Below, piece after piece: positions 41,273 to 58,314 of a stretch of DNA of 64,000 bases (position 1 is its first letter; every line of letters starts with the position of its first letter). Under the pieces are notes generated by a model that saw only the letters and a program-made list of their open reading frames with translations, did no database searches and was not told where the DNA came from. The translations under genes and the position numbers were made by a program. The DNA comes from Phyllobacterium chamaecytisi (GTDB taxonomy: Bacteria; Pseudomonadota; Alphaproteobacteria; Rhizobiales; Rhizobiaceae), in assembly GCF_020164455.1 (NCBI RefSeq), contig NZ_JAIQWW010000002.1:124001-188000 (forward strand). Direction: 5' to 3'.

Positions 41273-41299
41273 GAGCATCCGGGGCGCTTTGCTTCATGC

Positions 41300-41324
41300 A
41301 AAAACGGCCTGAGAGATCAGGCCG
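41300..41324 (-). terminator. intrinsic terminator of the porin gene
   Basis: On the minus strand, CGGCCTGA pairs with TCAGGCCG around a four-base loop and is followed by five T residues, 35 bases after the porin stop. The stem may also end MocR transcription from the other side, where CTTT follows it. Confidence 0.8.
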
Positions 41325-41358
41325 CTTTCATGTCTTCAAAATGGGCGCCTGTGAGGGT

Positions 41359-42598: not shown

Positions 42599-42844
42599 CT
42601 ACTTATCAATTCGCTCCAACCGTGCCAACCAGTCGCTTCCGATAGAATGAGATCTCAGGATCGCAAGAGGATCTTCCCAATCGAGACGCGAACAGATGCG
42701 ATAGATCTCCAATGTCTCCGCATCCATTTCGCCCCGCCGATTGAAGTACATGGCGGCGGCATAACGGGCGCGGCCTGACCACTCCTGCCCTAGCGGCGTG
42801 TTGATCAAGGCCCACTGTTCTCGCTCTACTTCGTCCGCAGACAT
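42599..42844 (-). CDS. 81-aa conserved-looking accessory protein of the methylated-amine locus
   Basis: Small acidic cytoplasmic protein of unknown function (81 aa), starting 1 base after the GcvT-like gene stops, so translation is coupled. It has no signal or membrane segment. Features: EWSGRARYAAAMYFNRRGEM near residue 20, EIYRICSRLDWEDPLAIL near 46, and a basic C-terminus. I do not recognise the family. As last gene of the operon with a THF-dependent demethylase and two flavoproteins, it may be a small subunit, but this is inference. Confidence 0.7.
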   Translation of the reverse strand: MSADEVEREQWALINTPLGQEWSGRARYAAAMYFNRRGEMDAETLEIYRICSRLDWEDPLAILRSHSIGSDWLARLERIDK

Positions 42845-42845
42845 G

Positions 42846-44093
42846 TCAGAAATCCCCAGGTGGGTTCGCAGTGCGTCGATCGAGCTTGATGAAGGGCCTC
42901 GGCACCACCTTGGCCCGCTTCATCAGTTTCTGATAACGCAACTCGCGCATGGCATAGATCTCGACCCACAGATCGCCGGTTATGGTGTCGCCGTAGGGCC
43001 GCTCCAGGCTGGCTAGCGCAATGTTGCGCTTGGCCATCGGCGACCATATCGCCGCGCTGACCAGTCCTATCTCGCGCTTGCCCTGATGGTACACAATGGC
43101 GTGTTCGGCAGGGATATTCCCCTCGATTTCAAGCCCCACAAGGACGTGCTGGAGGCCGCCACTAGCTCGAGCCTGCTGGATGGCACGCCGCCCGTTGAAG
43201 TGGGGCTTTTCCATATCGATCATGAATCCGAGGCCAATCTCATCCGGCATTCGCACCCGGTCCGCGCGGATGGCGTGCTCGGCGGTTATGAAATCCGAGT
43301 TGGCGACGATCAACCCTGCTTCGAGCCGCGCCCGGTTGAGTGCGGCATAGCCTATCGCGCGCAAGCCACGGGGTTCTCCTGCTTGCCACAACCTATCCCA
43401 AAGACTGAGAGCCATTTTCTGGTCTACGAACAGTTCATAGCCAAGATCGCCGGTAAAACCAGTTCGCGAGATCGTGACATTTTCGCCGTCGTGCTCAAAT
43501 TCAGCAAGGTCGAATATTTTCAGCGCGTCGACGCCGTTGAAGCCCGCGTCGCGCAGGACCGCAAATGACGCGGGGCCCTGCAGAGCCAAGCCCGCGACAG
43601 ACTTGGTCTCCTCGATAATGCTAACGTCAAACCCGATGCCGCTATCGAGCAGCCAGGGTAAATGCCGTTCCTGGCTGCAAAGACGAAACCGATCACTCGT
43701 CAGGCGGAAAAGCGTTCCGTCATCGAGCACGTGGCCCTCATCGTTGCACCAGGCCGTATAGTGAACTCTGCCGGGCTTCAACTTCCTGACATCGCGAAGG
43801 GTAACCCGGTTCAGGAATGCTTCGGCATCCGGTCCTTCAATGCGATATTTCACCATTGGCGAAATATCGAACAGCGCGGCCTGGCTGCGAATGGCGAAAT
43901 ACTCGAGTTCTTCGTCCCAAAGCGATAGAGGAGCCTTGTAGCCTGCCCAGTCGTACCACTCCTCCGTTCGCATCAATGCCTCGATGCGCGGCTGAAACGG
44001 CGAGGCGATGCGAGGCGTGCGGAAATGATCCTGTGAGGCGGCTCTCGCCATCAGCAGCTTTTTTGGGTCGCTGTGCTTCATGACGTTATCCAT
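42846..44093 (-). CDS. GcvT-like aminomethyltransferase / THF-dependent demethylase
   Basis: 415-aa protein of the glycine-cleavage T-protein family, which moves a methyl or methylene group from an amine (or, in relatives such as LigM and DmdA, an O- or S-methyl) to tetrahydrofolate. Landmarks: YDWAGYKAPLSLWDEELEYFA near residue 46, SQAALFDISPMVKYRI near 70, DDGTLFRLT near 124, RTGFTGDLGYELFV near 208, and RLEAGLIV near 255. No H-, P- or L-protein genes are nearby, so glycine cleavage is unlikely. It overlaps the flavoprotein gene by 8 bases. The exact start is uncertain: ATG at 44093 or 44081. Confidence 0.85.
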   Translation of the reverse strand: MDNVMKHSDPKKLLMARAASQDHFRTPRIASPFQPRIEALMRTEEWYDWAGYKAPLSLWDEELEYFAIRSQAALFDISPMVKYRIEGPDAEAFLNRVTLRDVRKLKPGRVHYTAWCNDEGHVLDDGTLFRLTSDRFRLCSQERHLPWLLDSGIGFDVSIIEETKSVAGLALQGPASFAVLRDAGFNGVDALKIFDLAEFEHDGENVTISRTGFTGDLGYELFVDQKMALSLWDRLWQAGEPRGLRAIGYAALNRARLEAGLIVANSDFITAEHAIRADRVRMPDEIGLGFMIDMEKPHFNGRRAIQQARASGGLQHVLVGLEIEGNIPAEHAIVYHQGKREIGLVSAAIWSPMAKRNIALASLERPYGDTITGDLWVEIYAMRELRYQKLMKRAKVVPRPFIKLDRRTANPPGDF

Positions 44094-45651
44094 TCCTCGC
44101 AATGATGCGTCGCGCCGCGTTCAATCCCGGGACGCCGGATACACCGCCGCCCGGATTGGAGCCGGAACTTGCAAGATAAAGTCCGTCAATAGGCGTGTCA
44201 TAGCCTTCAGCGCCGAAAACGGGACGGGACATCAACATCTGATCAGCCTGCAGTTCTCCGTGGTGCCAATGTCCACCCGGCATGCGGTAACGCTGTTCAA
44301 TATCCAGCGGCGTGAGGAGTTCGGCGTGGAGGATCGATTTGCCGATTCCTGGGGCATATGCCTCCAGCTGTGCAAGAATTGCCTTCAGGAACTTCGGTTT
44401 GCCCGCGGTCCAACCCTCCTTCAACACATAGGGAGCATACTGAACGATGGCGGAGAGGGTGCACGTCCCGTCGGGCGCCAGCGATGGGTCGAGCAAGCTT
44501 GGCAAGGTTATCTCCATGGCGGGCTCGGGCGAGAATTCTCCGTATTTGGAGGGATTGAATGCGCGCTCCACGTGATTGACGGAAGGCGCGATAACCAGCC
44601 GTCCATTCAACTCGGGTGCGCGCAGGCCTGAAAATTGCGGAATTCTGTCCAAGGCCAGATGCAGTTTCGCGGCATCGCCATTGACGCGGATATTATTGAT
44701 CCTTCGGACAAATCCTGTATCGATCTCGCGGGTCCCAACAAGATTGAGAAACGTCGTGCGAGGACTAATGGCGGATACAACCGTTTTCGCCCGGATTTCC
44801 TCACCGCTCTCCAGCAAGGCACCGACAGCCCGGCCATTCTCGATGATGATCCTGGCGACGGGAACATTCGAGCGGATGGCCACGCCAGCCTGCTCTGCGG
44901 CCAGTTCGATTGCCTTGACCACGGCGCCGGTACCGCCGACGGGATGCATCTGCGCGCCGGGCTTGCCACCAATTTCGCCCGCAAGCCGGTAATAGAGCCC
45001 GAGCAGGGAGGTCGGGGAGCGCGGTCCAAGATGGCTGCCAAGCGTGGCATCGAAAGCAAGAAGACCTTTCAACCGATCGTCTTCGAGATGTTCGTCCAGC
45101 ACATCGGCGACGTTCATCAGCAGCATGCGCAGAAAATCGCGCATGTCCTCCTTGCCGAGCCGGCGCAGGGAGATGCCGGTCATGGCCAGCGCCGACGTTT
45201 CTGCAAAGGACATGCCGCCCAAATCGGGAGGTCTGCGCGCGAGCAGGGGCTTCAGGATCCCGGCATAGCGGAAGAGCTGACTGCGCAGTCCGCTCCACGC
45301 CTCCTGTTCCGGCTTTGACGCGCCGACGAGAGTTTCACCATAAGCGCCGATCAGGGTAAGTGGTGCACCTTTTGCTGAAAGCACGGTGGTCGGCATCAAA
45401 GGGGACGTGTCCAGTTTCAGGCCGTGCTTCTGCAACTCCAGAGACTTGATTACCTCAGGATGCAACCTGTTAATCAGGTGGGCTACTGAAGACGTCCGAA
45501 AACCTGGTGCGAATTCCTCGGTGCGCGCAGCACCGCCGGTTTCACGCTCTGCTTCAAGTACGAGGACTTTTCTGCCGGTTTTCCCGAGGGTAGCGGCAGC
45601 AACGAGGCCGTTATGGCCGCCACCTATGACGATCGCATCAAATGACGTCAT
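44086..45651 (-). CDS. phytoene-desaturase-like FAD oxidoreductase (A)
   Basis: 521-aa flavoprotein. The N-terminal Rossmann motif IGGGHNGLVAAATLGKTG (residues 6-23) is followed by VLVLEAERETGGAARTEEF. A mid-protein HPVGGTGAVVKAIELAAEQ near 245 binds FAD, and the C-terminus has DGLYLASSGSNPGGGVSGV typical of CrtI-like amine and carotenoid oxidoreductases. There are no carotenoid genes here. It overlaps its upstream paralog by 14 bases and the GcvT-like gene by 8, so one transcript makes all three. I infer that it oxidises an N-methyl or amine intermediate. Confidence 0.85.
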   Translation of the reverse strand: MTSFDAIVIGGGHNGLVAAATLGKTGRKVLVLEAERETGGAARTEEFAPGFRTSSVAHLINRLHPEVIKSLELQKHGLKLDTSPLMPTTVLSAKGAPLTLIGAYGETLVGASKPEQEAWSGLRSQLFRYAGILKPLLARRPPDLGGMSFAETSALAMTGISLRRLGKEDMRDFLRMLLMNVADVLDEHLEDDRLKGLLAFDATLGSHLGPRSPTSLLGLYYRLAGEIGGKPGAQMHPVGGTGAVVKAIELAAEQAGVAIRSNVPVARIIIENGRAVGALLESGEEIRAKTVVSAISPRTTFLNLVGTREIDTGFVRRINNIRVNGDAAKLHLALDRIPQFSGLRAPELNGRLVIAPSVNHVERAFNPSKYGEFSPEPAMEITLPSLLDPSLAPDGTCTLSAIVQYAPYVLKEGWTAGKPKFLKAILAQLEAYAPGIGKSILHAELLTPLDIEQRYRMPGGHWHHGELQADQMLMSRPVFGAEGYDTPIDGLYLASSGSNPGGGVSGVPGLNAARRIIARNG

Positions 45652-47257
45652 GGGCGGGACTCATATGTTTTGTGCCGCGTGACAGATCACGCAGGATTTC
45701 AGCTGCAGCGTTGCGTCCGGGTGCTCCCATGACGCCGCCGCCTGGATGTGTGGAGGAACCGCACATGTAAAGGCTGTCGACCGGCGAGCGGTATTGCGCG
45801 TAGCCGGGGACAGGGCGGTTGAACAGCAACTGATCGAAGGTCAATTCGCCCTGGAAGATATTGCCCTCCGTCAGGCCGACTTCCGCTTCGAGTTCGCGCG
45901 GGGTGCGCACTTCCATATGTATGATGCGATCACGGAAACCCGGAGAATAGTCGGCGATCTGCGAAATCACCGTCTCGCCGAAAGCATCGCGGTCAGCGTC
46001 TGTCCACTCCTTGCCTTCCACCTTGGGTGGGCAATATTGGACGAAGCAGCTCATGAAGTGCTTGCCGGGCGGCGCCATCGTCGGATCGAGCGTTGTTGGA
46101 ATGACCATGTCCAGGAAAGGATCGGCCGACCAGCGCCCGGCCTTCCAGTCATCATATCCGCGCTCCATGCGTTCCACGCTGTCGGTGAAGTGCATGTCGC
46201 CGCGATAGACCGGCGAATCTTTTGGAAGTGCCGGAAACTCCGGCATGGAATCGAGCGCGATATTCACCTTTCCTGATGATCCGCGCATCTTGAAGTTCTT
46301 TACGCGGCGCAGGAAAATATCGGGGAGTTCCTTCTCCTCGACCAACTTGAGAAAAGTTCTTTTCACATCGGCGTTCGAAATGACCATCTTCCCGGGGATT
46401 TCTTCCCCGTCGACGAGCACAACACCCTTGGCGGAACCATTCTTGACGAGAACGTGATCGACTTCGACGCCGGTGCGGATCGTGCCGCCGGAGGCCTCGA
46501 ACGACGCGGCGAGCGCCTTTGTAACCGCACCCATGCCGCCGCGGGCATAACCCCAAGCACCGACAGATCCGTCAACCTCGCCCATGTAATGATGCAGCAG
46601 CACATAGGCCGTACCCGGTGACATTGGCCCCAGCGCCGTGCCGATGATTCCGGACAGCGCGAAATTCGCCTTGATCACGTCTGTCTCGAAATACTCATCG
46701 AGAAAATCCGAAATCGACATCGTCCAGAAGCGCAGTGTATCGGCCATCTCCGTGGCGCCGAGACCGGCAAACTTCTTGCCGAGATACATCAACTCCGAGA
46801 TATCGCGCGGCCGGAAGGTCGTTGGATCGGCAGCAGTGCGCATGAGCAACGGTTGTATGAACCGGCACTGTCTCGTCACGTCGCGCGCATATCGATCATA
46901 GGCTTCGGCATCGCGTGGCGAGAAACGCGCGAACTCTCGACGGTGCGCGTGATGGTCGCGATAGTTGGCCAGGTAATCGCCGTCCTGGGTGAACACTGCG
47001 CCGCCCTCATACGAGATGACCTGCAAACCAAAGCGCGGCAGTTCGAGGTCGCGCATGATTTCGGGCCGGAACAGCGAACAGACGTAAGAGCAGTTCGAAT
47101 ACAGGAAACCCGGGGTGAGAGACCGGCTGGTCGCGGCGCCGCCGATCCAGTCGTTCTTCTCCAGCACGAGCACATCGAGTCCAGCGCGCTGCAAATAGCA
47201 CGCATTGACCAAACCATTGTGTCCCGCGCCAATGACGATGGCGTCCCATTTTTTCAT
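45638..47257 (-). CDS. phytoene-desaturase-like FAD oxidoreductase (B)
   Basis: 539-aa paralog of the next gene downstream. Rossmann motif IGAGHNGLVNACYLQRAG at residues 8-25, then VLVLEKNDWIGGAATSRSL; YARGGMGAVTKALAASFE near 240; C-terminal DSLYMCGSSTHPGGGVMGAPG. The parallel organisation with paralog A indicates an old tandem duplication, now well diverged. It is the first gene of the leftward operon, and an 18-bp palindromic operator lies 67 bases upstream. It may form a heteromer with paralog A, but that is speculation. Confidence 0.85.
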   Translation of the reverse strand: MKKWDAIVIGAGHNGLVNACYLQRAGLDVLVLEKNDWIGGAATSRSLTPGFLYSNCSYVCSLFRPEIMRDLELPRFGLQVISYEGGAVFTQDGDYLANYRDHHAHRREFARFSPRDAEAYDRYARDVTRQCRFIQPLLMRTAADPTTFRPRDISELMYLGKKFAGLGATEMADTLRFWTMSISDFLDEYFETDVIKANFALSGIIGTALGPMSPGTAYVLLHHYMGEVDGSVGAWGYARGGMGAVTKALAASFEASGGTIRTGVEVDHVLVKNGSAKGVVLVDGEEIPGKMVISNADVKRTFLKLVEEKELPDIFLRRVKNFKMRGSSGKVNIALDSMPEFPALPKDSPVYRGDMHFTDSVERMERGYDDWKAGRWSADPFLDMVIPTTLDPTMAPPGKHFMSCFVQYCPPKVEGKEWTDADRDAFGETVISQIADYSPGFRDRIIHMEVRTPRELEAEVGLTEGNIFQGELTFDQLLFNRPVPGYAQYRSPVDSLYMCGSSTHPGGGVMGAPGRNAAAEILRDLSRGTKHMSPAHDVI

Positions 47258-47323
47258 TCGATACCCGTTCCCACTGTTCTTGCCCCATAATTCACACGAG
47301 AAATAATAGCTTGTCCAGCAGAT

Positions 47324-47341
47324 ATTGAATGAATGTTCAAC
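47324..47341. promoter_or_regulatory. operator 1 of the BetI-like regulon
   Basis: ATTGAATGAATGTTCAAC, a close match to two further copies at 53556 and 56351. It lies between the leftward flavoprotein operon and the rightward tetR-SBP-oxidase operon. Consensus of the three: ATTGAAYGAAYRTTCAAY. Confidence 0.75.
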
Positions 47342-47537
47342 AAATATGATTGCGTTATGGACGACTTTGGGTATTGTTGAGCTGGATTGTGGGCGGTACG
47401 CCGTTGACGGAGGCGGAGATCATCCGGGCTTGGAAACGATGCAGGGCGAGCTTGACAATGACGACTTTCACTTCACTCATCGGCATGAAGATGCCGGGCG
47501 TGAGTTGCAGACCGGCCAGATGCAAAAGAGGTCAAGC

Positions 47538-48209
47538 ATGAAAGTCACACCGATCAAGGAAAAGGACGCGGAGAAGCGCGGCAGAAAGGCTTCGAAGGAG
47601 ACCAGGCAGTTGCAGCTTATCGAGGCGACGATCGATTCGCTTGCCAAACGCGGCTATTCCGAGACGACTATGGCGGACGTGGCCGATGGTGCCGGTCTTT
47701 CGCGCGGCATCGTCAATTTCCATTTCGAGAGCAAGGAAAAGCTGCTCATCGCCACGCTGCAATTCATGTCGGAGGAGTATTCCGTTCACTGGCGCAACGC
47801 CCTGGCAAAGGGCGGCGATGATCCTGCCCGGCAACTTGCCAGCGTTGTCGCCTCGGATTTCGATCGTGCCATCTGCAACAAGAGAAAGCTTGCCGCCTGG
47901 TGTGCCTTTTGGGGGGAGGCGAAATCCCGGCCGACCTATCAGGCTCTGTGCGGCGCGCGGGACCAAGCCTATCAGAACGTGATCATCGACATTTGCAGAA
48001 AACTCAAGGCTGACGGCGATTATTCGTTCGATGCCACGGCAACAGCGCTTGGACTAAGCGCGATGCTTGAGGGCCTATGGCTGCGTCTCATGATGGGGAC
48101 CGAAGATGTGACGCGAGAATCGGCCCATTTTGCCGCCTGCGACTACCTGGCCTCCGTATTTCCAAAACACTTCTCAAGAGAAGCCCTACCGACAAAGAAA
48201 ACCGCATGA
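47538..48209 (+). CDS. BetI-like TetR-family repressor
   Basis: 223-aa regulator. The HTH domain (about residues 22-80) includes LIEATIDSLAKRGYSETTM, VADGAGLSRGIVNFHFESKEKLL. The C-terminal domain carries KLAAWCAFWGEAKSRPTYQALC (about 125-147), the region conserved in BetI, the choline-responsive repressor of glycine-betaine synthesis. AGAGG precedes the Met at 47538; an in-frame extension reaching 47325 runs through the operator and has no ribosome site. The leader of about 200 bases between operator and start is unusually long. It is likely to control all five transcription units of the surrounding locus. Confidence 0.88.
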   Translation: MKVTPIKEKDAEKRGRKASKETRQLQLIEATIDSLAKRGYSETTMADVADGAGLSRGIVNFHFESKEKLLIATLQFMSEEYSVHWRNALAKGGDDPARQLASVVASDFDRAICNKRKLAAWCAFWGEAKSRPTYQALCGARDQAYQNVIIDICRKLKADGDYSFDATATALGLSAMLEGLWLRLMMGTEDVTRESAHFAACDYLASVFPKHFSREALPTKKTA

Positions 48210-48234
48210 ACGGTTAACAATAAGGGGAATGAGC

Positions 48235-49317
48235 ATGAAGAAATCGGGCCGCCATCTTGGCATCATACTCGGAGTAGCCGCCGGGCTTTCGGCCGCGGTC
48301 GCGACGATCGCAATCGCCGCAGACAAGGATCTCATCGTTTTTGACTGGGCAGGATATGAGGAACCCTCGTTCCACCCCGGCTATGTCGCCAAGAATGGTG
48401 AGTCTCCAACATTCGCTTTTTTTGGCGACGAGGATGAAGCCTTCGAGAAGGTGCGTTCCGGCTTCAAGTCGGACCTAGGACATCCATGCTCGCAGAGTGT
48501 GAAGAAGTGGCGCGAAGCTGGCCTGCTACAACCATTGGATACGACGAAGATTACCGGTTGGAATGATCTTGCGCCGAACATCATGGCGATGAAGGAGCTC
48601 GCAACCACAGCGGACGGCAAGGCGTGGTTCATGCCCTGGGATTGGGGGAATACGTCGCTGACCTATAATACCGACAAGATCGACGCGAAGGACGTGCAAT
48701 CGCTGAAAGCCTTTGCCGATCCGAAGTTCAAGGACCGCGTGTCTATCGGCGACAATGTCGATGATGCTTATGCCCTGGCCAGTCTCGCGATCGGTTTGAA
48801 GGACTGGACGCAGATGACTGACGACCAATTCAAGCAGGCGTCGGATTTTCTTCGTGAGGTCCATAAAAACGTACGGCTCTATTGGACAGATACCACCGAG
48901 ATCGTGCAGGCGATGGGCGGCGGGGAAGTCGATCTGGCCTGGGCATGGAACGATGCAGCGACGCAACTCACGCTCGCGGGTACGCCGGCAGCCAGAAAGC
49001 CCGATACGGACGAAGGCAATTCAACCTGGGTTTGCGGTTATGTCCGCTTCAAGGATGCGCCCGGATCCGAAGCAAAAGCCTATGATTTTCTCAATGCGGT
49101 CAATGATCCGGCAATCGCGACCTATATGGTGAACGACTGGGGATATGGCATGGCGAACGCCAAGGGCATGGCATCGGTCGATCCGAAACTGCTGGAGGAA
49201 AAAGGCTATGCCAACAACGATAAATCCGCCGAGAATACCTTGTTCCAGTCGCCGCTTCCCAACGAGTTGAAGGCGAAGATGATCGCTGAATTCGAGAAGA
49301 TCAAGGCTGGGTATTGA
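48235..49317 (+). CDS. PotD-like polyamine/betaine substrate-binding protein
   Basis: 360-aa periplasmic binding protein with a signal peptide ending near residue 28 (AIAIA). PotD-type features: LIVFDWAGYEEPSFH near 33, SPTFAFFGDEDEAFEKV, PWDWGNTSLTYNTDKI near 132, and VDLAWAWNDAATQL near 235. Several tryptophans and tyrosines in these positions can form the aromatic box that holds cationic amines. AGGGGA supports the Met at 48235. It is separated from its permease and ATPase genes, which lie on the opposite strand, but operators show they are co-controlled. Confidence 0.88.
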   Translation: MKKSGRHLGIILGVAAGLSAAVATIAIAADKDLIVFDWAGYEEPSFHPGYVAKNGESPTFAFFGDEDEAFEKVRSGFKSDLGHPCSQSVKKWREAGLLQPLDTTKITGWNDLAPNIMAMKELATTADGKAWFMPWDWGNTSLTYNTDKIDAKDVQSLKAFADPKFKDRVSIGDNVDDAYALASLAIGLKDWTQMTDDQFKQASDFLREVHKNVRLYWTDTTEIVQAMGGGEVDLAWAWNDAATQLTLAGTPAARKPDTDEGNSTWVCGYVRFKDAPGSEAKAYDFLNAVNDPAIATYMVNDWGYGMANAKGMASVDPKLLEEKGYANNDKSAENTLFQSPLPNELKAKMIAEFEKIKAGY

Positions 49318-50624
49318 GCGCTGACATTCCCTCGCGCGTTGTCGTCGTCGGTGCAGGCTTTACCGGCCTGTCGGCGGCGACGGAGTTGGAACGCGCGGGC
49401 ATCGACTTTGTCCTGCTTGAGGCGCGAGACAGGGTTGGCGGCCGCGTCGAGGCAAAAATGAACGACCTCGATGACCTCTACGATACGGGAGGTCAGTTCA
49501 TCTGCGATGACATGCCCGAGATCATGGCCTTGGCGCGGACCCACGGCAAGACGTTGGTTGAGACATCTACACGCGGTGACACCGTCGCCCAACCGCCGCC
49601 GCACGGCAGGCATGATGCGGAAAAAGTTTCCGCAGGATCGATGGCTCTGCGTCGCCGCCTGCGGAAGCTGGATCCGACCGATCCAGCGCTGTCTGGTTTG
49701 ACCGTCCGCGCATGGGTCAACAGCCAACAGGCCGACCCCGCCGCAAAAATGCGATTTCTGTCGTTGATCGAAGGTCTATGGTGCGTACCGGCTGAGCTTG
49801 TTCCATTGTGGTTTATTGTCGATAACGACCGGCGTATCACCAACAAAGTCTCCGAACTTCAGTATTTCCTCAAGGAAACGATGCATTCGCTGGCAGCGGA
49901 TATGGCGCGGTCGCTGGGGAAATCGCTGCTATTGAGTGAGCCCGTCAACAGTGTCGAGACGACTGCATCCGGCTTCACGGTCCGCACTGTCTCCGGGGCT
50001 TATTCGGCCAACGAGGTCATCATTGCTGTGCCGCCTGTAATGGCGAGCAGGATCATCTTTCATCCCTCGTTGCCGGAGGCAATAAACAACGCGCTTGCCT
50101 CCTGGAAGAGCGGCACAGTCGTCAAGTTGCTCATACGATATTCCCAACCGTTCTGGCGGAGGACGGGCCTCAGCGGCAGTGTCATCTGGGTCGATCCGCG
50201 CGGGCTCTATGCTTGCGATGCAAGCCATGATGACCAGCACCCGGCGCTTGTGGTGTTCGTCGGAGGACCCATCGCTGTCGAGTGGTCAAGCCAGGGTGAA
50301 GCGGCGCTTAAACAGGAGGTGGTGTCGAGACTGGTGGTGGCGCTTGGACCAGAGGCTGGCGCGCCGCTGGACATCCTGCTTCGCAACTGGATCGACGACA
50401 CGTGGAGTGGTGGTGGCTATTCGGACATTGTCGAGGTCATGAACGCGACGGAATCCGAAAACACGCTGCGCCGCGGCGCCGCCGGCATCACCTTTGCCTC
50501 GTCGGAACTCTCGCCATCGTTTCCCGGCTATATCGAAGGAGCGATCATTGCTGGCCGCTTGGCGGCCCAGCCCATCATCGAGCGATTTCAGTCGGCGAGT
50601 GCCACCAACGCGTCGGGGTCGTAG
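49314..50624 (+). CDS. flavin-containing monoamine oxidase-like protein
   Basis: 436-aa flavoprotein oxidase. The FAD motif VVVVGAGFTGLSAATELERAG (residues 9-28), LLEARDRVGGRVEAK and a C-terminal TFASSELSPSFPGYIEGAI region are typical of the amine oxidase family (PF01593). The start is a TTG that overlaps the binding-protein stop (TTGA), implying coupled translation; there is no ATG at the right place. Its 3' end overlaps the convergent ATPase gene by 37 bases. It probably deaminates a primary or secondary amine; polyamine and putrescine are natural guesses. Confidence 0.85.
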   Translation: MSADIPSRVVVVGAGFTGLSAATELERAGIDFVLLEARDRVGGRVEAKMNDLDDLYDTGGQFICDDMPEIMALARTHGKTLVETSTRGDTVAQPPPHGRHDAEKVSAGSMALRRRLRKLDPTDPALSGLTVRAWVNSQQADPAAKMRFLSLIEGLWCVPAELVPLWFIVDNDRRITNKVSELQYFLKETMHSLAADMARSLGKSLLLSEPVNSVETTASGFTVRTVSGAYSANEVIIAVPPVMASRIIFHPSLPEAINNALASWKSGTVVKLLIRYSQPFWRRTGLSGSVIWVDPRGLYACDASHDDQHPALVVFVGGPIAVEWSSQGEAALKQEVVSRLVVALGPEAGAPLDILLRNWIDDTWSGGGYSDIVEVMNATESENTLRRGAAGITFASSELSPSFPGYIEGAIIAGRLAAQPIIERFQSASATNASGS

Positions 50625-51676
50625 GCAAGACGGATCGGGGCGCCCACAGGAATGTCGTCAGCGCCAAAATTATTGGTTTCCGTCACCGAGAGCGGTTTGT
50701 CAAAACCCGGTATCTCGATGACCAGATGCGTTATCTCGCCGAAGTAGTGCCGATCGACCACCTTGCCGGCCACCTCGTATTTGTCTGTCGCATCATCCCA
50801 CAGGACGCGCAGGCGCTCTGGCCTTATCCCTAGCGTCGCGCCTTTGCCGTTGCTGACAAAGGCAGCCGGCTTATCGGTTTTCACCCGCCCGAAGCCTGGC
50901 GTATCCAAGATCATCGAAGCGCCATTCTCCTCGACAATCTCAGCTTTGACGAAGTTCATGCCACCGAGAAAGTCGGCTACCTGGCAGTTGACCGGCCGCT
51001 GATAGATCTCTTTCGGCGATGCGACCTGCGCGATCTTCCCGCCGAACATGACCGCGATGCGATCGGACATCGCCAACGCTTCATATTGATCGTGTGTGAC
51101 GAGAATGAATGTGATGCCGACGGCCTGCTGCAGCCGCCGCAATTCGACCTGCATCTGCTCGCGCAACTTCTTGTCGAGGGCTGAAAGAGGCTCGTCAAGG
51201 AGGAGCACCTTCGGGCGCATGACGAGCGCGCGGGCGAGCGCAACACGCTGGCGCTGTCCACCGGACAGTTCGGTCGCACCGCGCTTCCCAAGCCCGGTCA
51301 GTGATACTTGCGACAGCGCTTCTTCGACACGGCGCTTTTCTTCGTCTGCTCCAAGGCGGAGCCGTTTCAGCCCGTAGCACACGTTCTGTTCGACATTGAG
51401 ATGCGGAAAGATGGCGTAGCTCTGAAACACCATATTGGTCGGCCGCCGATTGGCGGGAATGCCGTCCATCGGTTGGCCATCGACCGAGATTGATCCGCTT
51501 GTCGGCGTGTCGAAGCCCGCGATCATACGGAGCAGCGTGGTCTTGCCACACCCGGAAGGGCCGAGAAGCGAGAAGAACTCACCCTCGCGGATTGTCAGGG
51601 ACGTCTCATCGAGCGCCTTGAAGGCCCCGTAGCTGCGCGTCACACGCGAAATCTCGATCATAGAGCGTTCAGGCAA
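50588..51676 (-). CDS. PotA-type ABC transporter ATP-binding protein
   Basis: 362-aa ATPase. Walker A LGPSGCGKTTLLRMIAG near residue 38, signature LSGGQRQRVALARAL near 138, Walker B VLLLDEPLSALDKKL near 158, and a C-terminal TOBE regulatory domain (about 280-355, LGIRPERLRV). A TTG at 51676 has GGGAGG 5 bases ahead and overlaps the permease stop, so it is the likelier start; an ATG five codons later lacks such a site. It is last in the leftward permease-permease-ATPase operon. Confidence 0.9.
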   Translation of the reverse strand: MPERSMIEISRVTRSYGAFKALDETSLTIREGEFFSLLGPSGCGKTTLLRMIAGFDTPTSGSISVDGQPMDGIPANRRPTNMVFQSYAIFPHLNVEQNVCYGLKRLRLGADEEKRRVEEALSQVSLTGLGKRGATELSGGQRQRVALARALVMRPKVLLLDEPLSALDKKLREQMQVELRRLQQAVGITFILVTHDQYEALAMSDRIAVMFGGKIAQVASPKEIYQRPVNCQVADFLGGMNFVKAEIVEENGASMILDTPGFGRVKTDKPAAFVSNGKGATLGIRPERLRVLWDDATDKYEVAGKVVDRHYFGEITHLVIEIPGFDKPLSVTETNNFGADDIPVGAPIRLAYDPDALVALAD

Positions 51677-52490
51677 TCATGCCTCCCATATTCTGGGTGC
51701 GATTGCTTGCGCGGCGTCGCACGATTTCTGCGATGGTCAAAAGGATAATCGAACCAGCGAGGAGGAGTGTACCAAGCGCGAGGACGCCCGGCAGTTTGGC
51801 GGCAAATCGCAACTGACCCCAGATGTAGACTGGCAAAGTTGCTTCGGTTCCGGTCAGGAAGAATGCCATGATGAACTCGTCGAGCGAGATAGTGAAGGAG
51901 ACAAGCAGGCTCGAAATGATTGCAGGCGAAACCATAGGCAGCGTCACACGCCGGAACGTTCCGAAGGCGCTCTCGCCAAGGTCCGAGGAGGCTTCCTCAA
52001 GGCTCCTGTCGAAACCTTCGAAACCTGAAGTCAGCACACTCAGCGAATATGGGATGCAGATGAGGACATGACCGAATACGACTGTGATCAATGATAGGCT
52101 AAGACCGAGTTGAAGCATGACAAGCAGCATCGAGACTGCGACGATAATCTCTGGCAGGACCAGTGGTGCCATGAGCAGGCCATTGATCGTGCGCCTGCCG
52201 GGAAAGCGGTAGCGCGTAATGGCGCGCGCGGCGCATATGCCGAGTATGGTGCTCAACAGGGACGCAGAGACGCCGACGAGCAAGCTGTTCCATGCCGCAT
52301 CGGTTAGTGCCGGTGTGCGGGTGAGGTCGCCATACCATTTGAAGGTGAAACCGCTCAGGGGAAACTTCGGTGTCGCCGACGTGTTGATCGAAAAGATCGG
52401 CAGAAAAATCACCGGCAGATAAAGGAAGATGACATATAGAAAAGCATAAGTTTTCAGCCAGCTTGGTGCAAAGTTCCGCAATGTCTTCAT
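51669..52490 (-). CDS. PotC-type ABC transporter permease
   Basis: 273-aa inner-membrane permease with six helices. FLYLPVIFLPIFSINTS near residue 20, and the EAA loop EEASSDLGESAFGTFRRVTLP near 172-192. The ATG at 52490 overlaps the stop of the preceding permease (ATGA); in-frame sequence further upstream is that permease's DNA in another frame. It works with the PotB-type partner and the PotA-type ATPase to import the ligand of the PotD-like protein. Confidence 0.92.
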   Translation of the reverse strand: MKTLRNFAPSWLKTYAFLYVIFLYLPVIFLPIFSINTSATPKFPLSGFTFKWYGDLTRTPALTDAAWNSLLVGVSASLLSTILGICAARAITRYRFPGRRTINGLLMAPLVLPEIIVAVSMLLVMLQLGLSLSLITVVFGHVLICIPYSLSVLTSGFEGFDRSLEEASSDLGESAFGTFRRVTLPMVSPAIISSLLVSFTISLDEFIMAFFLTGTEATLPVYIWGQLRFAAKLPGVLALGTLLLAGSIILLTIAEIVRRRASNRTQNMGGMIA

Positions 52491-53479
52491 CGGATTCGCC
52501 TCGCTGCCATGCGGATCACGAGAACAACAGAGGCGGCCATGGCAGTCACCACCGCCATGGTGGTCACCGAGAGCGCTGCGCCGAGCGGCCAGTTTGCGGC
52601 TTTGCCGAACTGAGCCTGGATGGCATTGGCAATCATCACACCGTCTTTGCCGCCGACGAGACGCGGCGTCACGAAGTCGCCGACGGTCGGGATCATCACG
52701 ATGAGTGTTGCAGAGATGATCCCAGGCGCCGACAGGGGTAAGGTTATTCGCAGGAACCGCCGCAATGGCCCATCGCCGAGATCGGTCGCCGCCTCGACAA
52801 GCGAGCGGTCGATTTTTTCCAGCGAGACGAAGATCGGCAGCACCGCGAATGTTGCCCACGCGTGGGTCAACGTGATCACGACTGCACTGGTGTTGTAAAG
52901 GAATGCATCCGACGGGCCATTGGTGATTCCCAGACCCATCAACGTAGCATTGAGAACGCCGTTATAACCAAGGATGACCTTCCACGACATCACCCGCAGC
53001 AGATAGCTTGTCCAGAACGGAATGGTGATCAGGAACAGCCAGAGGCCCTTATGCTTGCCGCCATGGAACGAGATAAAGAAAGCGATGGGATAAGCTAGGA
53101 CGAATGTAAAGAAGCTGACCAGAAGGGAAATCCACAGCGATCGCATCAGAAGATCGCGGTAGATGGGATCGGTCAGCGCCACGCGATAATTTTCGAGGGT
53201 GAAGGTCCGGTCGATCGTCAGGTAGTTTTGTGTCCAGAAACTGTTGGCAATGACTAGAACAATTGGAATGACCAGGAAGATCACCGCATAAATAAACGTC
53301 GGGCTGATCAGCCCGAGACCACGCGCAGCTTCTGATTGCAGAACAGGATTTCTTTGTTTGCGCACAACAGGCAGTGCGGCGATCCCTTCCGCCGGTGCCG
53401 TCATTCGAACGGACCACGCGCGTGATATGCCATCAGGTACCGGAGCATATTGTTCCCATTCATTCGGTTCACGCGGCAC
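52487..53479 (-). CDS. PotB-type ABC transporter permease
   Basis: 330-aa permease with six helices and a hydrophilic N-terminal extension of about 55 residues. SPTFIYAVIFLVIPIVLVIANSF near residue 59 is the first helix; the EAA loop is EAATDLGDGPLRRFLRITLPL near 235. A GTG start is used (AAAGGGAAC ahead); a Met at codon 26 is the alternative and would remove half the extension. It is the first gene of the leftward transporter operon, 77 bases from operator 2. Confidence 0.9.
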   Translation of the reverse strand: MPREPNEWEQYAPVPDGISRAWSVRMTAPAEGIAALPVVRKQRNPVLQSEAARGLGLISPTFIYAVIFLVIPIVLVIANSFWTQNYLTIDRTFTLENYRVALTDPIYRDLLMRSLWISLLVSFFTFVLAYPIAFFISFHGGKHKGLWLFLITIPFWTSYLLRVMSWKVILGYNGVLNATLMGLGITNGPSDAFLYNTSAVVITLTHAWATFAVLPIFVSLEKIDRSLVEAATDLGDGPLRRFLRITLPLSAPGIISATLIVMIPTVGDFVTPRLVGGKDGVMIANAIQAQFGKAANWPLGAALSVTTMAVVTAMAASVVLVIRMAARRIR

Positions 53480-53555
53480 GTTCCCTTTGGTGCCATCTTT
53501 CTTGCATCATGCGCCTATCCGTGGATTGAAATCAAGTGCTATTTCTGACATATTG

Positions 53556-53573
53556 ATTGAACGAACATTCAAT
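53556..53573. promoter_or_regulatory. operator 2 of the BetI-like regulon
   Basis: ATTGAACGAACATTCAAT lies nearly midway between the divergent transporter operon (start 53479) and aminotransferase gene (start 53655). It is the best palindrome of the three copies (ATTGAA...TTCAAT). Confidence 0.78.
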
Positions 53574-53654
53574 ATGATGAGAGAAATCTTATTGATTTCC
53601 GATAATTGAATATGATTTTAAACCGGGAAACCCCGGCAATAGGGCGAGGGAACA

Positions 53655-55076
53655 ATGGCGGCGGTGAAACAGATACGGGCAGCCGGGGTGGCAGCGGCGC
53701 GGGCAAATCACGAGACGATCGATCTGGCCAAGCGGCATCTTGTTCAGCCATGGCCCTGGGCCGGAGAAATCGGCGCCGAGGCCAGATCGCTGATCAGCGG
53801 CGGCGAGGGAATTTACATCACCGACGGCGAGGGCAAGCGGCTTATCGACGGGCCTGCAGGCATGTGGTGTGTCAATATCGGACACCGCCGCGAGGAGCTG
53901 GCGCGCGTCATGTACGACCAGGCCATGCAGCTTTCCTACAACACGCCCTGGTATACGATGAACGAGCCTTCGGCGGTGCTCGCGGAGCGCATCGCTGCCT
54001 ATGCTCCCAGCGACCTCAATCACGTCTTCTTCACCACGGGCGGGTCAACAGCTGTCGAAAGCGCACTTCGCTTCATGCAGTTTTTCAACAATGCACGCGG
54101 CCGGCAGGAGAAAAAGCTGATCCTGTCGCGGGGCGGCGCCTATCATGGTTCTACCTATCTTTCGGCGTCGTTGAATGGGCGTCCGCGGGATCGCGACTGG
54201 ATGGATGGGGCAGACGAACTCGTCGTCAAATTGTCATCCCCGAATGCATTCCGCCGTCCCGAAGGCATGAGTATAGCTGCATTCTCGGACATGCTGGTCG
54301 CCGAGTTCGAGGAGACGGTCCGCCGCGTAGGTGCCGACAAGATCGGCGCTTTCATTGGCGAGCCGGTCCAGGCTTCAGGCGGCGTCATTCTACCGCCCGA
54401 AAACTATCTGCCGCGCATCCGCAAGATATGCCGGGACAATGAAATACTGTTTATCGCTGACGAAGTGGTCACGGCCTTTGGCAGACTTGGGCATGTCTTC
54501 GCTTCCGAGGATGTATTCGATATCGATCCGGACATCATCACCTTTGCAAAGGGTGTCACCTCCGGCTATTTTCCGCTCGGCGGCATGGTCATTTCAGAGC
54601 GTCTTCTTGAAGAACTGCGCCGTTCGAACCACCCGACAGCGATGTATGCGCATGGACTGACCTACACCAGCCATCCTGTGGGCTGCGCTGTGGCTCTCAC
54701 CAATCTCGATCTGCTCGAGGATGGCATCCTTGCGCACACGCAGTCCGTAGCGCCCTATTTTCAGCAGCAACTGAAGACGCTTGAGGAATTGCCCCTGGTT
54801 GGTGAGGTTCGCGGGATAGGTTTGATGGCCTGCGTCGAGTGTGTTGCCGACCGCGAGAGCAAGAATCCGCTCCAGCTTGATACGAATGTCGGAATGCGCA
54901 TCGACGCACATTGTCATGAACTCGGCCTTCTGGTGCGACCGCTCATTAATATGTGCGTGATGTCGCCGCCGCTGGTGATTACCCGCGAACAGATCGACGA
55001 TATGGTCGGTATTCTGCGCGAAGGGATTTCGCGCACGATGGACGATCTGCGGCATGAGGGCGTCTGGCAAGGATAA
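53655..55076 (+). CDS. class III omega-aminotransferase
   Basis: 473-aa PLP enzyme. Landmarks: GMWCVNIGHRREELARVM near residue 75, TTGGSTAVESALRFMQFF near 132, SRGGAYHGSTY near 158, FIADEVVTAFGRLGHVFA near 265 (Asp that holds the PLP ring), and the Schiff-base Lys in ITFAKGVTSGYFPLGGM near 297. The GxWCVNxG start is typical of putrescine, beta-alanine or taurine:pyruvate aminotransferases. GAGGGAAC precedes the ATG. The transcript ends at a strong terminator. It would transfer a terminal primary amine to a keto acid once methyl groups are removed, in keeping with a polyamine-like substrate. Confidence 0.9.
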   Translation: MAAVKQIRAAGVAAARANHETIDLAKRHLVQPWPWAGEIGAEARSLISGGEGIYITDGEGKRLIDGPAGMWCVNIGHRREELARVMYDQAMQLSYNTPWYTMNEPSAVLAERIAAYAPSDLNHVFFTTGGSTAVESALRFMQFFNNARGRQEKKLILSRGGAYHGSTYLSASLNGRPRDRDWMDGADELVVKLSSPNAFRRPEGMSIAAFSDMLVAEFEETVRRVGADKIGAFIGEPVQASGGVILPPENYLPRIRKICRDNEILFIADEVVTAFGRLGHVFASEDVFDIDPDIITFAKGVTSGYFPLGGMVISERLLEELRRSNHPTAMYAHGLTYTSHPVGCAVALTNLDLLEDGILAHTQSVAPYFQQQLKTLEELPLVGEVRGIGLMACVECVADRESKNPLQLDTNVGMRIDAHCHELGLLVRPLINMCVMSPPLVITREQIDDMVGILREGISRTMDDLRHEGVWQG

Positions 55077-55093
55077 TCCGGCTAACGACAAAT

Positions 55094-55119
55094 AACCCGG
55101 CAACTACGCCGGGTTTTTT
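55094..55119 (+). terminator. intrinsic terminator of the aminotransferase gene
   Basis: CCCGGC and GCCGGG (extended by two A-T pairs) enclose a six-base loop and are followed by six T residues, 20 bases after the stop. This separates the aminotransferase from the convergent Rieske gene. Confidence 0.9.
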
Positions 55120-55137
55120 ATTGCGCGTTGTCGGCAA

Positions 55138-56334
55138 TTAGCTCTGCGCAGCCAGTTGCGCATTGAGCAACGGCACGTCGGCCTCTGCCGGCGCCTTCTC
55201 GACCCTCAGTATGGGCAGCACATTGCGCAGGTGATCGTGATGCGAACGCACGCCATATTCGAGGTCCGAGAGATAGAATCCCGAGAACGATTTCGACAGC
55301 ATCGATTCATTTGACCATTTCGTCAGCTGAACATCTTCCGAACTCGTCTCGCGATCGATGCGCGAGGCGAGATAACGGGCGGCCCGCTGCTGCCGTGTCT
55401 CATCCTTGTGGCGGAATACAGCGCCGCGCAACAGGGTCTCGCCCGTCGACAACGGAAACTCCTGATAATACTGCGCTCCTTCAGGCGTAACCGAGATCAC
55501 AGAATTCGGGAAAATCCCGTAATAGATCCACGCGTTGCGCAGGTCCTCGGGCAGATGCGTCGCCTCCGGTGCCAGATTGATATAGTTGCGCACACTCCAG
55601 CGCCGTCCCGCATGGGGATTATAGCTGGCGAAAGATCGCGACACGCCATTGACGAATGGCTCGTCGTAATAGGTCGAGCCGTAGAGATCCTGGAGCGCCG
55701 GATGTGCCATTGCCACGTGGTAGCCTTCATTGTCGACATCGCGCACCGACTTCCAATTGACGGGCGATTTCTGCGTCCAGTAACCCGCGGAAACCATATC
55801 CGCGATCTTGTAGTTTGCAATTTCCGCTTCGAACGGCTTCATCAATGTCGCAACCGATGGCTGCGCGCTCTCGAGAAAACGGATGAAGATAAAACCCATC
55901 CAGATTTCAAGTTCGAGTGGCAACAGACCGAATTCGTTTTTGTCCATCTCCGGGAAAGAGCGCGGACGCGACGCGCCTCTGAGGGTGCCGTCGAGGTTAT
56001 AAACCCAGCCATGGAAGGGACAGACCAGCGCGTTGTTGCATGTTCCCTTGTTGTCGGTGACGACGCGAGATCCCCGGTGACGGCAGATATTGTGAAAGGC
56101 ACGGATTTCGCCGTCCTTGCCACGCACGATCAGAGCCCGCTCGCCCACGATATCAAGCGCGACGTAGTCGCCGACATTCGGCACATCGCAGACATGCCCG
56201 GCTATCTGCCAATGGCTTCGAAATACGTATTCCTTCTCGAGCTCGAGCAAGGCCGGACTGCTGTAGCTCCAGGCCGGCAATCCCCGGCGGTCCCAGTTGT
56301 TCGGAATCGTCAAATCGCGCTGATTAACCTGCAT
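55138..56334 (-). CDS. Rieske-type mononuclear iron oxygenase, CntA/GbcA-like group
   Basis: 398-aa oxygenase alpha subunit. The Rieske [2Fe-2S] site is CRHRGS (Cys84, His86) and CPFHGW (Cys105, His108). The catalytic iron site has NWKSVRDVDNEGYHVAMAH with His206 and His211. The bridging residue three positions before His206 is Glu203; in ring-hydroxylating dioxygenases it is usually Asp, whereas carnitine oxygenase CntA uses Glu. This points to N-demethylation or C-N cleavage of a quaternary or methylated amine. No reductase gene is in the locus. The ATG at 56334 lies just downstream of operator 3. Confidence 0.88.
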   Translation of the reverse strand: MQVNQRDLTIPNNWDRRGLPAWSYSSPALLELEKEYVFRSHWQIAGHVCDVPNVGDYVALDIVGERALIVRGKDGEIRAFHNICRHRGSRVVTDNKGTCNNALVCPFHGWVYNLDGTLRGASRPRSFPEMDKNEFGLLPLELEIWMGFIFIRFLESAQPSVATLMKPFEAEIANYKIADMVSAGYWTQKSPVNWKSVRDVDNEGYHVAMAHPALQDLYGSTYYDEPFVNGVSRSFASYNPHAGRRWSVRNYINLAPEATHLPEDLRNAWIYYGIFPNSVISVTPEGAQYYQEFPLSTGETLLRGAVFRHKDETRQQRAARYLASRIDRETSSEDVQLTKWSNESMLSKSFSGFYLSDLEYGVRSHHDHLRNVLPILRVEKAPAEADVPLLNAQLAAQS

Positions 56335-56350
56335 AAATTCGCTCTTACTT

Positions 56351-56368
56351 ATTGAATGTTCATTCAAT
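56351..56368. promoter_or_regulatory. operator 3 of the BetI-like regulon
   Basis: ATTGAATGTTCATTCAAT begins 17 bases before the Rieske oxygenase start codon, where a bound repressor would block transcription or initiation. Its reverse complement differs from operator 2 at one position. Confidence 0.78.
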
Positions 56369-56450: not shown

Positions 56451-57641
56451 TCATACTATGTATCGGAGACGGCGGGCGCCAGACTCCGCATTTCGTTGCA
56501 GCGCCGCACCACATTCACTTGGCTGCCGAAGCCCGAGCATTGTCAAAGTGACATCGATTTCATCTCGGAGCATGGCAAGTAGATCCTCGGCTCCCGCCTC
56601 ACCATTTGTGGCGAGCCCCCATAGCGGCAGCCGACCAATCATTACTGACTTGGCGCCATTTGCGATATACTTCAGGACGTCGCTTCCGCGCTTCACGCCA
56701 CTATCCGCAAGAACGTCAAGATCGTGGCCAACAGCATCTGCGATTCCCGGAAGAACGTCGATCGGCGCGGGTGCAATATCAAGATTGCGGGCACCGTGAG
56801 CGGACACCACGATCCCGTCGGCTCCAGCAGCCTTTGCTAGATAGGCATCGTGAACGCCAAGAACACCCTTGATGACAAGTTTACCTTTCCACCAGCGTCG
56901 AAGCTGATGGATGTCGTCCCAGTTCAGAAGGTTCTCCAGGCGGACGGCTTCGGCGATGGAAAGTCGGGTGACTGCGCTACGGAATTCCTGCGGATAATGG
57001 CCATAGGTGGGCATACCAGTTGCGAGGAGATAGCGAAGCAGGACCCCACATAGCCAACGCGGATGGAGCGCCACATCCAGGCCAAGCCGCAGTGAATACT
57101 TTATCGGGATCGAAAAACCGTTCCGATGGTTGTATTCCCGCTTCGGACTTGCGGGGGTATCGGCCGTCACGACCAGTGTCGTCACACCTGCCTTTTCCAC
57201 ACGTTCGAGAAGCGCGCGCGACAGGTTTCTATCCTTCCACATGTAAAGTTGAAACCAAAGGCTGGCTCGAGGCGCTCCGGCGCGGATCTCTTCGATGGTC
57301 GTGATGGATTGTGTGGAGATGCAAACCGGGATGCCCATCCGCTCAGCCGCTCGGGCAAGTTTGATCTCGCCATTGTGTGAGACCAGTCCAGCCAGGGCCG
57401 TCGGCGCCACAACCAACGGCATCGCTGTCGTTTCACCGAGAATTTCGGTTCTCAGTTCGCGCTCAGGGTGGCCAGTCAGCACACTTGGAATGAGCTTGAT
57501 AGAATCGAGACTATTTCGAAGGCTTCGCAGGGCATTCTCATCTTCAGTTCCACGATCGATATATTCGAAGAGCGCCTTGGGAAGAGCTCTCCGGGCGGCG
57601 TCGCGAAAGTCCCCGGCGTTCAAAAGTCTCTGCATTTTCAT
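56451..57641 (-). CDS. FMN-dependent L-2-hydroxyacid oxidase/dehydrogenase
   Basis: 396-aa member of the lactate/glycolate/mandelate oxidase family. Features: FEYIDRGTEDENALRSLRN near residue 24, PLVVAPTALAGLVSHNGE near 74, WFQLYMWKDR near 128 (conserved Tyr), VIKGVLGVHDAYLAKAAGADG with the FMN Lys near 245, and the catalytic His/Arg in VVSAHGARNLD near 268 (normally SNHGGRQLD; here Ala replaces Asn and the second Gly). Membrane or soluble location is unclear. It begins 13 bases after the XRE-cupin gene, so the two are an operon. Confidence 0.9.
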   Translation of the reverse strand: MKMQRLLNAGDFRDAARRALPKALFEYIDRGTEDENALRSLRNSLDSIKLIPSVLTGHPERELRTEILGETTAMPLVVAPTALAGLVSHNGEIKLARAAERMGIPVCISTQSITTIEEIRAGAPRASLWFQLYMWKDRNLSRALLERVEKAGVTTLVVTADTPASPKREYNHRNGFSIPIKYSLRLGLDVALHPRWLCGVLLRYLLATGMPTYGHYPQEFRSAVTRLSIAEAVRLENLLNWDDIHQLRRWWKGKLVIKGVLGVHDAYLAKAAGADGIVVSAHGARNLDIAPAPIDVLPGIADAVGHDLDVLADSGVKRGSDVLKYIANGAKSVMIGRLPLWGLATNGEAGAEDLLAMLRDEIDVTLTMLGLRQPSECGAALQRNAESGARRLRYIV

Positions 57642-57654
57642 TTGCCTTCGCAGA

Positions 57655-58314
57655 TCATGAGACGGCGAGGACCCAAAGCACTTTAGCGTCGCGCTCGCCG
57701 GCGGATGTCCACACGTGCTCGGCATTGGCATCGTAGTAGATCGAATCTCCCTCGTTCAACACAAGCGGCTCATATAGCTTGCTGTGGACGACAAGAGTGC
57801 CTTCCAGGACGGTCAGGAAGATTTCGGCCCCCGATTTTGCCCAGATCTTATAGTCATCGGGTGAACGTGCCGAAACGCTCGTCATAATCGGTGTCATTTT
57901 TTTGTTGCGTAGATCCGAACATAGGAAGTTGTTGGCACACGTATCCGTGTCATGAGCTTTGCCGCTTCCAGCCCGAGTAACGCTGCGGCGGCCATAGCCG
58001 CTTGGCGATGTATTTTGCGCATTCAGCAATTCCATCAAATCAATTCCGAGGCCAACGGCGATTCGCTGCAGCGTTCCGATTGTCGGGGAAAGTTCATTGC
58101 GTTCGATTTTCGAAAATGCCGAGGCAGATACGCCCGTCGCTTTGCTAACACTCTGCAACGTCAGGTTTCTGTCCTTGCGAATCTGATGCAATCGCGCGCC
58201 GATGTTCATCTCGGATGGCGCGGCATCTGCAATGCTGCTGGCGTGTTCGTCGCTCTTGCGGCGAATGACATCATGGAGCAGTACGCCCTGATCGCTGATT
58301 GACTGGCTGGCCAT
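57655..58314 (-). CDS. XRE-family regulator with C-terminal cupin domain
   Basis: 219-aa regulator. The N-terminal helix-turn-helix (about residues 38-92) reads IGARLHQIRKDRNLTLQSVS and TGVSASAFSKIERNELSPT; a beta-rich cupin domain covers about 135-219 (GAEIFLTVLEGTLVVH, GDSIYYDANAEHVWTSAG). Such proteins sense small metabolites through the cupin and control adjacent catabolic genes. GGAG six bases ahead favours the Met at 58314; an in-frame ATG at 58368 is the alternative. It is divergent from the lyase-dehydrogenase-ABC operon. Confidence 0.88.
   Translation of the reverse strand: MASQSISDQGVLLHDVIRRKSDEHASSIADAAPSEMNIGARLHQIRKDRNLTLQSVSKATGVSASAFSKIERNELSPTIGTLQRIAVGLGIDLMELLNAQNTSPSGYGRRSVTRAGSGKAHDTDTCANNFLCSDLRNKKMTPIMTSVSARSPDDYKIWAKSGAEIFLTVLEGTLVVHSKLYEPLVLNEGDSIYYDANAEHVWTSAGERDAKVLWVLAVS

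Follow-up and report, generated by a model that had tools for sequence, protein, structure and literature searches.

What do three near-identical 18-bp palindromes control in the genome of Phyllobacterium chamaecytisi? They lie in a 64,000-nucleotide stretch of contig NZ_JAIQWW010000002.1 (positions 124,001 to 188,000; the whole stretch is called the window here, and positions are counted from its first letter), within a locus of five transcription units at 42599-56368 that a first-pass annotation had read as a BetI-like regulon for a methylated amine. The operators, the gene set and their conservation in relatives were observed directly; reading the individual steps from the protein families, we consider it probable that a BetI-like repressor controls the uptake of a quaternary amine, its N-demethylation by a Rieske oxygenase and a flavin/folate system, and then its transamination. 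The regulon idea is strongly supported, since the operator is kept at equivalent places in relatives and also stands before some Rieske genes that are remote from the core of the locus.

The layout of five units given by the first-pass annotation matches the one found here, namely crtB-crtA-gcvT and the gene of an 81-amino-acid protein (minus strand), tetR-potD-mao (plus), potB-potC-potA (minus), a class III aminotransferase gene (plus) and a Rieske oxygenase gene (minus). The features are as follows.

47324..47341, no strand: operator 1, between crtB and tetR
53556..53573, no strand: operator 2, between potB and the class III aminotransferase gene
56351..56368, no strand: operator 3, 16 bp upstream of the inferred Rieske start
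45638..47257, minus: crtB, CrtI/CrtO-like flavin adenine dinucleotide (FAD) protein B, below the NCBIfam CrtO and CrtI cut-offs; most conserved member
44086..45651, minus: crtA, CrtI/CrtO-like FAD protein A, Pfam Amino_oxidase, below the NCBIfam CrtO and CrtI cut-offs
42846..44102, minus: gcvT, GcvT-like folate-binding protein (PF01571, 1.2e-57)
42599..42844, minus: 81-amino-acid all-helical protein, last gene of the crt operon
47538..48209, plus, start inferred: tetR, BetI-like TetR repressor (PF13977, PF00440)
48229..49317, plus, start inferred: potD, PotD-like solute-binding protein with altered polyamine contacts
49314..50624, plus: mao, flavin amine oxidase, optional member
50588..51676, minus: potA, PotA-like ATPase (Pfam/NCBIfam profile matches)
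51669..52490, minus, start inferred: potC, PotC-like permease (Pfam/NCBIfam profile matches)
52487..53479, minus: potB, PotB-like permease (Pfam/NCBIfam profile matches)
53655..55076, plus: class III aminotransferase (PRK07036 family)
55138..56334, minus, start inferred: Rieske oxygenase, quaternary-amine type (PF00355/PF00848)
55094..55115, no strand: terminator-like hairpin between the convergent aminotransferase and Rieske genes, of a kind whose frequency in the region is not above that in shuffles

The palindromes stand where they had been annotated (47324, 53556 and 56351), each with 0 mismatches to the first-pass consensus. They also occupy promoter regions of all five units, as had been claimed, once two gene starts are corrected. 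For both tetR and the Rieske gene the longest open reading frame (ORF) begins too far upstream and runs into an operator (operator 1 for tetR, operator 3 for the Rieske gene). The alignment to BetI models begins only at residue 90 of the TetR ORF (model position 5-6), relatives from three same-family loci align to the Rieske protein from residue 28-29 onward, and the likely starts judged from these alignments are 47538 (or 47520) for tetR and 56334 for the Rieske gene. Because these likely starts lie later than those of the longest ORFs, operators 1 and 3 are intergenic, and the three intergenic regions with operators face all five units. Scanning the window at up to 3 mismatches returned 5 strand-matches, all at the three operator places (0.53 expected; 5 or more reached in 0 of 100 shuffles), so that the window holds no further copies, in agreement with the first-pass annotation. 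A promoter-like pair at 53526-53554 stops 1 bp short of operator 2; shuffles contain such pairs at least as often as the region does.

The own genome (6.36 megabases) was searched with the symmetric pattern ATTGAAYGWWCRTTCAAY, from which two of the locus sites differ by 0 mismatches and one by 1. Outside the locus, 2 places at 1 mismatch were found: C15:60494, inside a listed ORF that is glycosidase-like by sequence reading, and C34:150495, where the 3' ends of two convergent genes face each other, one RidA-like and the other dihydrolipoyl-dehydrogenase-like (also named by sequence reading). Neither is a promoter position. At up to 3 mismatches there are 73 strand-matches vs 15 for a reversed control pattern, so the strict form of the operator alone is specific and the loose scan is misleading.

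Relatives of the locus were found with CrtB (63-91% identity in 13 relatives), and the best 80 of at least 588 related stretches were kept; these 80 loci come from Phyllobacterium, Mesorhizobium, Rhizobium, Shinella, Rhodobacteraceae, Woeseiaceae, Comamonas-like bins and others. In 38 of them (L054-L091) the best site within 300 bp upstream was scored, skipping genes that were absent or under 55% identity and leaving cut windows unscored, which yielded 37 crtB, 33 aminotransferase and 11 Rieske windows. A site was present upstream of crtB in 37/37 scorable loci (at most 5 mismatches), upstream of the aminotransferase gene in 33/33 (at most 4) and, at no more than 3 mismatches, upstream of the Rieske gene in 6 of the 11 narrower windows and in 11/11 uncut loci with a wider window; 5 more loci were cut by the locus end in the wider window, 1 of them with a site. 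Random 310-bp windows from the same loci had 6 or more mismatches in 718 of 760 cases; no filter for real sites was applied to the other 42, some of which must overlap such a site. The other 42 loci (L092-L133) contain 27 with a scorable region beside a BetI-like match, and 14 of these 27 have a site at up to 4 mismatches, including L093, which is of the window's type. One such site, from Woeseiaceae (TetR protein about 40% identical), reads AATGAATGAGTATTCATT.

Window-type Rieske genes (at least 53% identity) that lie away from the crt core were examined in 7 genomes. The operator precedes them at 0-2 mismatches in 3 of the 7 (G037, G038, G079), and in G068 and G135 a diverged palindrome (4-5 mismatches) beside a Rieske pair replaces it. 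For G105, a 3-mismatch site accompanies the Rieske gene, which lies near the end of a different contig. The loci of G135 (L145) and G068 (L146) hold two Rieske genes, a Pot-type transporter, a BetI-like TetR and an 81-amino-acid/cupin protein together, without the crt-gcvT core; the L145 palindrome, ATTGACAGTTCAGTCAGT, differs from the window operator.

The genes are also kept together. Among 199 genomes of the order, CrtB (E<=1e-170) and GcvT (E<=1e-60) match exactly the same 14, and the Rieske protein (E<=1e-70) matches 22, of which 13 are within these 14, anywhere in the genome; the crt-gcvT block reaches Gammaproteobacteria. In 54 of the 80 loci CrtB has 8 kb or more of sequence to either side; these full loci hold CrtA in 54, GcvT in 54, the BetI-like TetR in 50, a class III aminotransferase in 50 (window type in 40, GSA-aminotransferase type in 10), PotA in 47, PotD in 46, the 81-amino-acid protein in 38, the Rieske gene in 31 and the amine oxidase in 20. 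Over all 80 loci, crtA comes directly after crtB in 78. The gcvT gene follows in 73 of the 80, and each of the 7 exceptions is within 1.6 kb of a locus end. These counts are not independent, because the loci were picked by CrtB and many are close relatives. The co-conservation that the first-pass annotation had proposed as a check is strong. On plasmid pW43C of Parasedimentitalea marina (L161) the core has extra Rieske-like genes nearby, with a histone-deacetylase-family protein, a 3-keto-5-aminohexanoate cleavage (BKACE-family) protein, an amidohydrolase and an alanine racemase as further neighbours.

What kind of chemistry do these proteins suggest? The nearest sequence to the Rieske protein in the PDB is carnitine monooxygenase CntA, followed by entries for stachydrine demethylase Stc2. 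Residues were counted in relatives from the 80 loci above identity and 85% coverage limits (PotD 36, GcvT 72, Rieske 18, the last with at least 50% identity). In 18/18 the two Cys and two His of the Rieske centre, the two iron His and the bridging Glu, which aligns with CntA Glu205, are invariant, as in the group V oxygenases (CntA, GbcA, Stc2). The window protein differs from this group in missing the GbcA cut-off, in having no adjoining reductase gene in view, and in lacking a CXXC pair, which only some group V members have: the Cys pair by the iron site, described for CntA and Stc2 (PMC10952381), is Gly232 and Val235 in 18/18 relatives.

The GcvT-like protein has its best NCBIfam match to the GcvT part of trimethylamine N-oxide demethylase (Tdm), at 256 bits far under the cut-off of 1100, and scores 142 bits against the SoxA model (cut-off 1164), short of the full-length family cut-off in both cases. 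It is a folate domain with an Asp-Asp motif, kept in 72/72 aligned relatives, and we take this Asp pair to be important for folate chemistry in T-proteins and dimethylglycine oxidase. It shares the motif, and the expected one-carbon transfer to folate, with the folate parts of Tdm, dimethylglycine oxidase/dehydrogenase and heterotetrameric sarcosine oxidase; in contrast to these, the window's GcvT is a separate protein, and its flavin partners are the CrtI-like pair rather than DAO-type flavoproteins or the N-terminal part of Tdm. The two CrtI-like proteins (36% identical to each other) fall short of the CrtI/CrtO families (CrtO 237 and 309 bits vs 1000; crtI_fam 114 and 139 vs 238.1), and the first and third Gly of the FAD-binding motif are kept in 74/74 and 79/79 of their aligned relatives. 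Long open frames around gcvT in G085, G120 and G129 were considered as fusions and rejected. In the G129 locus (L048) the crtA homologue runs in two overlapping frames at about 17282-17298, possibly a frameshift or a sequencing error.

For the 81-amino-acid protein there is no significant Pfam or NCBIfam match. Its AlphaFold model is a confident helical fold (predicted local distance difference test, pLDDT, 94.6). Comparison of this fold with the PDB found nothing at E<=0.001, and the three PDB sequences matched by a profile search have E values of 0.34-1.9. In some Rhodobacteraceae it is found as the N-terminal region of a dimethylsulfoniopropionate-lyase-like cupin. CrtA, CrtB, the GcvT-like protein and this small protein are the most novel part of the locus and a candidate new N-demethylase. 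We put forward tentatively, at a little under even chances, that together they are a folate-coupled N-demethylase of a new kind, in which a CrtI-type flavoprotein pair takes the place of the DAO-type flavoproteins of sarcosine oxidase and dimethylglycine dehydrogenase, and that bacteria from Rhizobiales to Gammaproteobacteria (the latter often lacking the 81-amino-acid partner) use it on a widespread quaternary amine.

The transporter and regulator resemble known ones with differences. Aligned with E. coli PotD, the PotD-like protein keeps Trp34, Tyr37, Trp229, Trp255, Tyr293 and Gln327 in 36/36 relatives, and in the same 36/36 Tyr85 is Gln, while Asp168, Glu171 and Asp257 are Asn, Asp and Cys. 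We take these positions to be the spermidine contacts of the E. coli PotD structure, and the altered contacts therefore fit a ligand other than a polyamine. The aminotransferase scores 705 bits in its PRK07036 family (cut-off 618). In L155 a related aminotransferase (54%) is in an apparent operon with pyrroline/piperideine-2-carboxylate reductase-like and NADH:flavin oxidoreductase-like proteins, a hint of the uses open to this family. The amine oxidase, being optional (20/54), drops out as a core step. The TetR protein carries a BetI-type C-terminal domain, scores 118.4 bits against TIGR03384 (cut-off 201.3) and 115.4 against PRK00767 (cut-off 118), and no protein of the own genome is above the TIGR03384 (BetI) cut-off. 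"BetI-like" is therefore sound as a resemblance and does not extend to membership of the family. With the BetI regulons for choline and choline-O-sulfate (Ruegeria, E. coli, Sinorhizobium, Acinetobacter) the locus shares this domain, a half-site starting ATTGA and a quaternary-amine theme; it differs from them in its demethylation-type genes, with no bet gene seen, and in its 18-bp operator with two extra bases per half, the betI box being a 14-bp ATTGACG-CGTCAAT palindrome (PMC12442346).

Put together, the BetI-like TetR bound to the three operators would keep the five units repressed until it binds a quaternary or N-methylated amine; the PotABCD-type ATP-binding cassette transporter would take up this amine, and the group V-like Rieske oxygenase may remove the first methyl from the quaternary nitrogen. 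The two CrtI-like FAD proteins could then oxidise the remaining N-methyl groups, with the GcvT-like protein handing the one-carbon unit to tetrahydrofolate and the 81-amino-acid protein as a putative small partner. Finally, the class III aminotransferase (together with the amine oxidase in some species) would deaminate the freed primary amine, whose nitrogen could be used.

As to the substrate, the methylated amine of the first-pass annotation is favoured by the quaternary-amine type of the Rieske protein, the folate-binding GcvT and the altered PotD contacts. Glycine betaine or carnitine alone is probably not the substrate, because elsewhere in the own genome a carnitine dehydrogenase passes its cut-off and three Rieske genes score higher against GbcA than the window's does (none over the GbcA cut-off). 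Beside the core, a minority of other loci have an acyl-coenzyme A (CoA) dehydrogenase, a nucleoside-diphosphate-forming CoA ligase and PuuC/betaine-aldehyde-dehydrogenase-like aldehyde dehydrogenases (below cut-offs), and a few have carnitine 3-dehydrogenase (over its cut-off in G013) and crotonobetainyl-CoA-hydratase-like and BKACE-like proteins (both below cut-offs); the window-type locus of Peteryoungia (L078) adjoins carnitine-type genes. These neighbours therefore indicate, as a minority signal, a trimethylammonium compound near gamma-butyrobetaine or its aldehyde, and such a compound near gamma-butyrobetaine is our best guess. Of the aldehyde dehydrogenases in other loci, five have PuuC and betaine-aldehyde dehydrogenase as their best matches without reaching the cut-offs, and one, in L132, is over the aminobutyraldehyde-dehydrogenase cut-off; these families are not known to be CoA-acylating, which is a mild argument against beta-alanine betaine. 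The latter, delta-valerobetaine, trimethyllysine and N-methylated diamines were all considered as candidate substrates.

Several results weigh against a demethylation regulon of this composition. No site at up to 4 mismatches was found in 13 of the 27 regions beside a BetI-like match in L092-L133, several of these being Rhodobacterales with a TTGAC...GTCA palindrome in the operator's stead; the BetI-like matches of 23-37% identity in this group may not be orthologues. Among the 7 genomes with core-remote Rieske genes, those of G018 and G036 have no operator upstream. The aminotransferase (E<=1e-150) is in 13 of the 199 genomes, only 5 of which have the crt core, and the Rieske, aminotransferase and TetR genes also occur without this core. 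The Rieske gene is in only 31/54 full loci, partly because many loci end before its position, and a reductase for the enzyme was not seen in the cluster. We know of no CrtI-like proteins acting on amines; the predicted model of CrtB is poor (pLDDT 65) and was judged unfit for a fold search, and a CrtA-GcvT fusion is absent among 88 neighbouring pairs. Carnitine dehydrogenase and BKACE-like genes, which bear on the best guess for the substrate, are each in 3/54 full loci and 5/80 overall.

Could the locus instead break down a polyamine or diamine without methyl groups, with something other than demethylation as the task of its Rieske and GcvT-like proteins? PotABCD, a class III aminotransferase and a flavin amine oxidase recall polyamine uptake with Puu/Spu-type catabolism, and PuuA- and PuuC-like neighbours occur in some other loci; against this stand the demethylation-type genes, the three acidic spermidine contacts of E. 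coli PotD, changed in 36/36, the bridging Glu shared with CntA, and a GcvT protein whose best NCBIfam match, a demethylase, would be left unexplained. We regard this as unlikely. A conventional BetI-controlled regulon for choline, glycine betaine or carnitine, its gene set rearranged, appears more doubtful still. Among named regulators BetI comes closest, the Rieske protein has CntA, Stc2 and GbcA as its nearest matches, and carnitine-type genes adjoin the locus in some relatives, yet glycine betaine degradation is not known to require a class III aminotransferase, the TetR is under both BetI cut-offs, no cluster protein is named as a bet gene, and the carnitine dehydrogenase and GbcA-closer Rieske genes noted above lie elsewhere in the own genome. 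The operator length is also unlike that of the 14-bp betI box (PMC12442346).

Finally, the Rieske-transporter-aminotransferase regulon and the crt-gcvT core might be two separate pathways with a common regulator. L145 and L146 combine two Rieske genes, transporter and 81-amino-acid/cupin protein without crt-gcvT, and L152-L154 and L156 have the aminotransferase with a BetI-like TetR, again without it. However, TetR and aminotransferase accompany the core in 50/54 full loci each, the crtB-crtA-gcvT order is broken only near locus ends, and in window-type loci one operator precedes all these units; we give this division a very low probability, the lowest of the three. A single regulon for import, demethylation and transamination of a quaternary amine is the reading that we prefer.

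A search of the open-access literature for the pathway or its parts returned no title or abstract start describing this gene set. In soil and sea, methylated amines form a large reservoir of organic nitrogen and one-carbon units, and many genes for their degradation are without assignment. The regulon is a compact, conserved and easily tested set whose operator can be used to find further members, and it suggests testable functions for three proteins that annotation does not name specifically: a pair of widely conserved "oxidoreductases" and a small orphan. If the CrtI pair with GcvT is indeed a demethylase, a protein family known from carotenoids would gain a role in amine degradation.

The locus is flanked by other genes on both sides. 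At 56451-61803 it adjoins a catabolic set of a flavin mononucleotide (FMN)-dependent dehydrogenase, a cupin-helix-turn-helix regulator, DapA-like and GlcD-like proteins and a family-3 solute-binding protein, within which there is no operator copy and which is probably a separate pathway. Beside the crt operon, 39935-41976 encodes a GntR plus aminotransferase-domain regulator and a Brucella OMP2-like protein.

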